This document shows, piece after piece, positions 7,805-59,461 of a DNA stretch of 64,000 nucleotides. Position numbers and translations under genes: made by a program. The stretch is from IMG/VR virus record IMGVR_UViG_3300020147_000065, positions 157,109 to 221,108 of that record. The stretch is one strand, 5' to 3'. Positions within the stretch are counted from its first letter, which is position 1. Each line of letters begins with the position of its first letter. The notes under the pieces were generated by a model that saw only the letters and a program-made list of their open reading frames with translations, made no database searches and was not told where the DNA came from. This DNA is from a virus.

Positions 7805-7938
7805 TTATAGTCACAAAGGGTAAAAACGATTCGCAATTATCGCGCGGGGGAATCCGAAAATTCTCCCGCTCCTTTGTGCCCCCCCCTTGCGTCAAGTGGT
7901 ATATTTGTTAAAATAAATGGTGAAAGTGAGGAAAACAA

Positions 7939-8079
7939 ATGGCTGCTTTGACTGATGAACAGAAGAAATTGGGTTGGGTCGAAGGCACTTCCGCAGAGTT
8001 TCTCGGACTCACACCCGAAGAAGAAGCTCAGGTGCTCGAAGAAATGGAAGGTAAACCAGAAGCAGAGGACTCGGAGTAA
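7939..8079 (+). CDS. Small acidic protein of unknown function
   Basis: 46 residues, acidic, helix-rich (LTPEEEAQVLEEMEG). Sits between the two acidic paralogs at 7694 and 8181. GTGAGG precedes the ATG; -10 TAAAAT. Confidence 0.5.
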   Translation: MAALTDEQKKLGWVEGTSAEFLGLTPEEEAQVLEEMEGKPEAEDSE

Positions 8080-51817: not shown

Positions 51818-51888
51818 GCGCTTGTAGTTCAGTGGTAGAACACCGACTTCTAGATTCGGGTGTGGCGGGTTCGAATCCTGCCGAGCGC
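51818..51888 (+). tRNA. Amber suppressor-type tRNA (CUA)
   Basis: Acceptor GCGCTTG/CGAGCGC; arm CCGAC-TTCTAGA-TTCGG gives anticodon CUA, which reads UAG (C-U mismatch at 31-39). T-arm GCGGG-TTCGAAT-CCTGC. TATAAT at 51803-51808. The next two translation starts downstream are followed by in-frame TAG codons. Confidence 0.75.
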
Positions 51889-51914
51889 ACTTCATCTTAA
51901 TTAAGGAGCCTACA

Positions 51915-51998
51915 ATGAGCAAGTAGATTGACTTCATGTAGCTGTGTTCAAATAAATCACCACCCGTGGTTAGCCAGATTTCACAAACAACTGACTGA
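51915..51998 (+). CDS. Putative small ORF with two in-frame amber codons
   Basis: AAGGAG seven bases before ATG, then MSK-TAG-IDFM-TAG followed by an open stretch to TGA (28 codons in all, with both TAG read as sense). It lies directly behind the CUA tRNA. Could be a small protein made only when amber is suppressed, or a regulatory leader for 52021. Confidence 0.4.
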
Positions 51999-52020: not shown

Positions 52021-52395
52021 ATGAACACCTTAGGAACAGCGATCACGTCGCAATTTTACGTGAACCCTGAAACCGGCTATGCCGACATTACTGCTGCTTG
52101 GAAACAAGCTCTGGCTGACAAGACACCGATGAACGCAGGTTCGTATATGCTTTATGCTATCCTGCGCGGCAAGGATTGGAGAAAGGGAATTAGTCCCATC
52201 ACCAATCATAACAAAATCGCAAACGGCGGTTATTATAACTCTGCTATGTATAATATAGGTTATCCTACCAGGATTCCTGAGTACTTTGCAGAACACGTTA
52301 AACCCGAAGCTCTAGCAATCATCAAGCAGATGATTCCTTCCTTCGGTTTGGATCTGCCCTCCGAAGCGTATTGCGTCAAGGAGGCAGTGAGATGA
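52021..52395 (+). CDS. Protein of unknown function
   Basis: 124 residues, alpha/beta (NPETGYADITAAWKQAL start). CGGAGA precedes the ATG. ATGA overlap with the next gene. Confidence 0.6.
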   Translation: MNTLGTAITSQFYVNPETGYADITAAWKQALADKTPMNAGSYMLYAILRGKDWRKGISPITNHNKIANGGYYNSAMYNIGYPTRIPEYFAEHVKPEALAIIKQMIPSFGLDLPSEAYCVKEAVR

Positions 52396-52697
52396 CGTAG
52401 TGGGTTTATGTGATAGTAAGAACTGATATTCCGGTGGAGAATCAATTCGCGCAGATGGGACATGCGTGTATCGAAGCTGGGAGAAAATGGCCGCAAGCCA
52501 CGGGTGCAAACATCGTTATCCTTCAAGCTAAGGATCAAAAAGAATTTGATAAATTCCAAAGCCGATGTGAGCGAGACGGTATTCAGTTCGTAACATTTGA
52601 GGAAACAGAACACCCTGTGGGGACATGGGCTGCTTGCAGCGAACCAGTTACCGCAGATCAGAGAAGAACCTTCCGTTGTTTTCTCCTTCATAAGTGA
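52392..52697 (+). CDS. PTH2-like peptidyl-tRNA hydrolase with in-frame UAG at codon 3
   Basis: The ATG at 52392 forms an ATGA overlap with the upstream gene and has AAGGAGG before it. It reads M-T-TAG-W-V-Y-V-I-V-R-T-D-I-P, then QMGHACIEAGRKW, and C-terminal strand and helix segments as in PTH2 proteins (R-T-D, Q-x-x-H-A). PTH2 frees tRNA from stalled peptides. The only other start is GTG 52410, which lacks a Shine-Dalgarno and would cut the first strand. The amber codon implies control by the CUA tRNA 500 bases upstream. Confidence 0.65.
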
Positions 52698-52701
52698 CGA
52701 A

Positions 52702-52725
52702 AAGGACACCTTTCGGGGTGTCCTT
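52702..52725 (+). terminator. Rho-independent terminator
   Basis: AAGGACACC and GGTGTCCTT with TTCTTTCT tail. Confidence 0.85.
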
Positions 52726-52760
52726 TTCTTTCTAAAAATCTTTCAATTGACCTTGACAAA

Positions 52761-59373: not shown

Positions 59374-59443
59374 TTACAGCATAGCTTAATGGATAAGCAA
59401 AAGTCTTCAAAACTTTAGATTGCGGGTTCGACTCCCGCTGCAA
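59374..59443 (+). tRNA. Opal suppressor-type tRNA (UCA), inside an outer stem
   Basis: Acceptor TTACAGC/GCTGCAA (one A-C mismatch), D-arm GCTT/AAGC, anticodon arm AAAGT-CTTCAAA-ACTTT (UCA, reads UGA), T-arm CGGG-TTCGACT-CCCG. Flanking AAGATAGTT (59355-59363) and AACTATCTT (59447-59455) form a 9-bp outer stem (element E4, with TACAGCA). UGA is also used as a normal stop here. Confidence 0.65.
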
Positions 59444-59461
59444 TAAAACTATCTTGTAAAT

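Follow-up and report, generated by a model that had tools for sequence, protein, structure and literature searches.

An early in-frame stop codon and a matching phage tRNA very probably gate a PTH2-fold gene in jumbo phages

Results

An amber-interrupted gene downstream of an amber-reading tRNA

The window analysed here is a 64-kb stretch (G000:157109-221108) of a 221,108-bp IMG/VR phage contig, in which 36 tRNA genes were called. One of these has a CUA anticodon and would read UAG (Table 1); its ARAGORN label, 'Pyl', derives from the anticodon alone, and a CCA end is absent from the gene sequence. About 500 nt downstream lies a small gene in which the ATG (52392-52394) is followed by ACG, an in-frame TAG (52398-52400) and TGG; the frame then runs on without interruption, 98 codons in all after the TAG, to a TGA at 52695-52697. 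This layout, with its AAGGAGG Shine-Dalgarno sequence and its ATGA overlap with the upstream gene, had been described in an earlier note; inspection of the letters confirmed it, and the CUA tRNA placed there at 51818 was also called by ARAGORN. The base after the TAG is a U, a poor context for suppression that counts against gating at this locus. A Pfam search with the upstream 124-aa ORF gave no match.

Two further features of the window can be recorded. Directly 3' of the CUA tRNA lies a possible short ORF with two in-frame TAG codons, possibly a second suppressor-dependent ORF or a leader. The window also carries a tRNA with a UCA anticodon, and the phage may hold an opal-gated gene as well, although none was identified.

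Table 1. Features of the window around the PTH2-fold gene
Feature	Position	Strand	Basis or remark
Suppressor tRNA gene, anticodon CUA (reads UAG)	51818..51890	+	ARAGORN
Possible 28-codon ORF (AAGGAG, ATG 51915; in-frame TAGs 51924-51926 and 51939-51941)	51903..51998	+	read from sequence
Upstream ORF, 124 aa	52021..52395	+	TGA 52393-52395 overlaps PTH2 ATG
Shine-Dalgarno AAGGAGG of PTH2 gene	52378..52384	+	read from sequence
PTH2-fold gene, 101 aa if TAG is an amino acid	52392..52697	+	Pfam PTH2, AlphaFold, PDB matches
In-frame amber codon, codon 3	52398..52400	+	early stop conserved among homologs
Hairpin and T-run 3' of PTH2 gene, resembling an intrinsic terminator	52699..52734	+	read from sequence
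tRNA gene, anticodon UCA	59374..59447		ARAGORN 'SeC' label, from anticodon only

The readthrough product has a PTH2 fold

Translated with TAG read as Q, the 101-aa product matches Pfam PTH2 (PF01981) at 24.7-24.8 bits (E 2.8e-5), above the curated cut-off of 23 bits. Its AlphaFold model (pLDDT 90.8) shows a PTH2 fold, and the best structure matches in the PDB are the PTH2 structures 2zv3, 3erj and 1q7s (TM 0.75-0.81). The frame had been called PTH2-like from its letters, and both the profile and the model bear this out. A PDB search by sequence returned mainly designed proteins, with PTH2 chains scoring weaker, and some homologs score under the Pfam cut-off (CBB, 18.7; ME3, 15.5). The conserved catalytic Lys of PTH2 (GKGK motif) is not conserved in the alignment of the main phage subfamily; the Atu_ph07/Phosso branch retains one Lys (MTAGKLASQ). 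Because this residue is absent from most of the subfamily, we refer to a PTH2-fold protein and not to a proven hydrolase, and its activity as a peptidyl-tRNA hydrolase is doubtful.

Translation might instead begin downstream, at GTG 52410 or later, with ATG-ACG-TAG forming a separate mini-ORF or leader. Annotators chose such starts in CBB_406, Arash_gp84c, XacN1 ORF364 and Phosso 267, and in mycobacteriophage IkeLoa a GTG directly follows the TAG. However, starting at GTG 52410 lowers the Pfam score to 22.4 bits, under the cut-off, and would remove half of beta-1, which spans residues 4-10 of the model, in agreement with the earlier proposal that this start cuts the first beta strand. In CBB the sequence from the TAG to the conserved core contains no start codon at all, and the annotated start drops the first strand and helix, a stretch under strong purifying selection. 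A downstream start would also leave the tRNA association and the TAG-to-TGA swaps described below unexplained, and we consider it very improbable.

Early in-frame stops are widespread among homologs

Homologs were gathered from named and metagenomic jumbo phages by tblastn and IMG/VR scans. Scanning IMG/VR with a single protein yielded no match, and alignments of close subsets did recover homologs. Dereplication at 90% identity left 47 genes, 36 of which have an early in-frame amber and one an early opal; in L062 the amber is internal. Homologs as divergent as 18-40% identity share the early stop, which lies at codon 3 (21 genes), 4 (9), 5 (4), 2 (2) or 10 (1). A purine, the context that favours suppression, directly follows it in 35 of these 37 genes. 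The amino-terminal codons differ widely: ATG-ACT-TAG in ME3 (MT#), ATG-GCA-CAA-TAG in CBB and GAP32 (MAQ#), ATG-ACG-CAC-TAG in BF (MTH#), MAH# in XbC2, ATG-CTG-TAG in Arash (ML#), ATG-ACT-CAC-TAG in LR756511 (MTH#), ATG-AAA-TAG in pT24 and ATG-AAG-TAG in LR756500 (both MK#) and ATG-TAG in IkeLoa (M#). IMG/VR loci show the early stop too, and the arrangement, an early stop paired with a matching phage tRNA (below), is kept among jumbo phages that infect proteobacteria, Bacteroidetes or mycobacteria.

Codon substitution after the stop is strongly constrained. The ratio dN/dS or pN/pS is 0.08-0.22 downstream of the TAG and 0.05-0.10 in the segment from the TAG to the annotated start, so that nonsynonymous changes are ~5-20 times rarer than synonymous ones, including in the stretch that annotations leave out. 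These comparisons support the view that the stop sits within a translated, selected frame. A decayed gene would be expected to show just such a stop at codon 3, and the earlier note had allowed for an erroneous base at 52398-52400. An error is refuted by the independent cultured and metagenomic phages that have the early stop, and a pseudogene is scarcely credible given that the stop is common to dozens of divergent phages, is followed by sequence with dN/dS of ~0.1 and covaries with a tRNA anticodon. Nor do most homologs begin at the GTG position, another finding that had been named as fatal to the proposal: they carry an in-frame stop at codons 2-5 instead. The question whether homologs have TAG or a sense codon at position 3 is thereby answered largely in favour of TAG, at codon 3 or 4 in most.

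Labels placed on the homolog tree require eight changes, implying that gating was acquired or lost several times. In L039 and in Myxococcus phage Mx1 (L027) the start codon lies in a different frame with a stop between, which counts against gating in these two. There, the frame of the Shine-Dalgarno-linked ATG ends at a stop (TAG in L039, ~7900-8001; TGA in Mx1, 1460-1501) and the PTH2 frame continues at +1; these may be frameshift-gated versions or errors.

The stop occurs together with a matching suppressor tRNA

With strict tRNA calling a CUA tRNA accompanies 34 of 37 amber genes, and with relaxed calling 36 of 37, as against only one of seven uninterrupted (sense) PTH2 genes (Fisher p = 7.8e-5 to 6.8e-6). 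No CUA tRNA was found anywhere in the records of the sense homologs RaK2, Hallingskeid and L054, the last of which has 28 tRNAs nearby. The exception among sense genes is L069, which has a CUA tRNA and an uninterrupted PTH2 start. On the amber side, L073, a fragment of 14.5 kb, yielded no CUA tRNA, and in L057 and L064 the candidates are degenerate or uncalled. Several phages have two different CUA tRNAs.

The suppressor tRNA bodies of different phages look ordinary and are unrelated to each other, which makes the inserted amino acid unlikely to be the conserved feature. Selection thus seems to act on readthrough itself, rather than on one amino acid. Stop and anticodon match, TAG with CUA in most phages and TGA with UCA in L083 and Atu_ph07. 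We looked for an ochre counterpart in LR745208 and L055, where UUA tRNAs lie near PTH2, and found none. Such UUA tRNAs lie at 8564-8636 in L055, 1899-1975 in L026, 13129-13207 in L044 and 9038-9115 in L052, and no ochre-interrupted gene was found beside any of these four.

The PTH2-fold gene often has a partner. In ~45 fetched loci, near-copies included, a HD hydrolase of ~175 aa adjoins PTH2 or is fused to it. Where the two are fused (XacN1, RAS14, L063 and L064), the TAG is found where the fusion begins, rather than at the PTH2 domain, a placement consistent with control over the entire product. The HD gene itself carries an internal TAG in CBB, BF, XbC2, L041 and L042, and an early stop in L040, L078, L080, L081, L083 (TGA), L084 and L086. 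The solved structures nearest to the HD model are the tRNA-processing enzymes 3wfo-3wfr, at a weak E of 7e-3, and the family match, to CCA tRNA nucleotidyltransferase, is also weak. An HD profile found no match in the window phage, where no HD gene follows PTH2. The earlier note saw one gene; as judged from comparison, its extent is that of a widespread module, often with a stop-gated HD-hydrolase partner.

Two codon/anticodon swaps

As sequence evidence for the predicted pairing of stop and tRNA, two swaps are decisive. In L083, PTH2 has a TGA at codon 4 and the HD gene a TGA at codon 5, and the phage has two UCA tRNAs and no CUA tRNA; its nearest relatives combine CUA tRNAs with a TAG in PTH2 and, where the HD start was read, another in HD. 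The second swap was predicted before looking. The only suppressor tRNA published for Atu_ph07 is a UCA tRNA (PMC6102473), from which we expected an early TGA in its PTH2-like gene; the gene starts at ATG 199001 and has TGA at codon 7 (198983-198981). In the sister phage Phosso, whose protein is 72% identical, the gene begins ATG-AAG-TAT-TAG and there are two CUA tRNAs; a pattern scan of Phosso for a UCA tRNA found none.

The standard code is retained

Another reading is a general reassignment of the stop (genetic code 15), in which PTH2 would be just one of many recoded genes. Such reassignment has precedent in Lak and crAss-like phages, and LR756501, whose PTH2 gene holds a second TAG inside, may be an instance. 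Under code 15, TAG would not terminate genes and would lie inside many of them, a pattern not seen here. By mechanical count, TAG terminates 14 of 94 ORFs of at least 100 aa in the window. We scanned eight jumbo-phage genomes (~2.2 Mb) for a Shine-Dalgarno sequence, an ATG, one to eight codons, a stop and an ORF of at least 60 codons. Each genome gave few TAG matches, PTH2 being among them in CBB, BF, XacN1, Arash and the window phage; in G013, a phage with a UCA tRNA, PTH2 fell in the TGA list instead. Almost no further genes of this design were found, and the stops lie at codons 2-5 of PTH2, not scattered through the gene. Reassignment is accordingly even less probable than a downstream start, and what the sequences describe is a gated module, not an altered code.

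Raw blastp across TAG codons returned 1902 sites, almost all of them noise from other frames; a frame filter reduced these to 93, of which only HD was supported by several distant phages. A candidate second amber gene of CBB and BF, 'MADE#FNQY', was rejected as a conserved noncoding element. This element, 'ATGGCAGATGAG...', is repeated in several copies, in CBB (L137 ~18221, L133 ~14499) and BF (L156 ~18874).

Discussion

Many giant bacteriophages carry tRNAs that read stop codons. We propose that in jumbo phages these tRNAs probably serve an early-stop PTH2-like gene. That this gene is readable only through the matching phage tRNA is, on present comparisons, highly likely, and the earlier suggestion that PTH2 production depends on amber suppression gains support from the covariation of stop and anticodon and from the selected frame. 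In the window phage, ribosomes starting at ATG 52392 would terminate after two codons if the CUA tRNA were missing. With the tRNA present and charged, a fraction of them would decode UAG and make the full PTH2-fold protein, at a level presumably governed by how much tRNA there is relative to release factor. Readthrough would take place in infected cells, with an efficiency and timing that we can only infer, and it is a reasonable inference that the gene is switched on solely when the phage tRNA is produced. The most likely purpose would be to make a factor for tRNA recycling or repair depend on when, and to what extent, the phage tRNAs function; such a factor would appear only after the phage tRNAs have been made, charged and left intact.

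A more specific reading, which we hold tentatively, is a self-adjusting circuit. The suppressor tRNA would turn on the PTH2-fold protein, often together with HD, and these would act on peptidyl-tRNAs or tRNA ends made by suppression, with stop and anticodon as lock and key and the amino acid irrelevant. In one form, about as tentative, this would be a feedback thermostat in which PTH2, with or without HD, clears the peptidyl-tRNAs or tRNA ends that arise from drop-off after a short peptide or from readthrough of normal stops, thereby limiting damage or recycling the suppressor tRNA. The PTH2 fold of the gated protein, the position of the stop where short peptidyl-tRNAs arise, the near-absence of other gated genes from the scanned genomes and the resemblance of HD to tRNA-processing enzymes, including the CCA tRNA nucleotidyltransferase match, are consistent with such a thermostat, but the HD match is weak and the catalytic Lys missing from the main subfamily makes hydrolase activity doubtful. 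Less likely still, the suppressor tRNA could act as a fuse for, or a reporter of, tRNA integrity or RF1 activity, the output of PTH2 and HD shifting when host defences cut tRNAs or when RF1 falls. The two different CUA tRNAs of several phages and the tRNA-processing resemblance of HD would suit such a sensor; however, we saw no connection with any defence system, and shut-off upon tRNA cutting would turn off a repair factor at the very moment of need.

Parts of the suppressor-gated arrangement recall known systems. The gene of RF2 (prfB) is autoregulated by programmed recoding, a +1 frameshift at an early UGA. As in RF2, an early in-frame stop would here gate a translation factor's own gene, but the phage gate would be opened by a dedicated tRNA, with no frameshift needed in the standard cases (L039 and Mx1 apart). 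Two-codon minigenes of the lambda bar type, ATG-codon-stop, yield short peptidyl-tRNAs that Pth clears; the phage genes begin in the same way, but their minigene coincides with the beginning of the hydrolase-like gene and is proposed to be read through. The protein resembles PTH2 (PF01981) in sequence match and fold, and differs from classical PTH2 in lacking the conserved GKGK Lys and in its stop-gated gene. Borges et al. reportedly proposed late-gene control for stop reassignment in phages. Phages of code 15 or 4, among them Lak and crAss-like phages, likewise decode in-frame stops with a phage suppressor tRNA (PMC9523058, PMC10879173, PMC13037316); in the jumbo phages, by contrast, the standard code is kept and the in-frame stop occurs just in a single small module, for the most part at its beginning, so that the arrangement resembles a switch rather than a code.

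The authors who described suppressor tRNAs in XacN1 (PMC5852040), Atu_ph07 (PMC6102473) and RsoM2USA (PMC8504454) named no specific target gene; those of XacN1 state that they were unable to identify the targeted genes (PMC5852040). We propose the HD-PTH2 fusion of XacN1 and the PTH2-like gene of Atu_ph07 as targets. For the reported CUA tRNA of RsoM2USA (PMC8504454) no target was found, and the match lists contained no PTH2 match to any Ralstonia phage; some CUA tRNAs may therefore target other genes, or the record lies outside our collection. In the open-access literature searched, we found no earlier report that links a phage suppressor tRNA to PTH2.

The in-frame stops have also left their mark on databases. 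GenBank annotations of the homologs start downstream of the stop or miss the gene, with CBB_406/407/408, Arash_gp84c, XacN1 ORF364 and Phosso 267 as resulting artefacts; the CBB HD gene is annotated as two separate ORFs, and PHROG family 34073 (77 positions) spans only the region after the wrong start. A systematic annotation error is thus exposed, in which stop-gated genes are truncated or absent in GenBank records.

Specific, testable target genes can now be offered for the suppressor tRNAs of jumbo phages. The pairing of stop and tRNA is widespread and is maintained by compensatory change. A single stop codon and a single tRNA would together make up a naturally occurring gene switch, in phages that elsewhere keep to the standard code.
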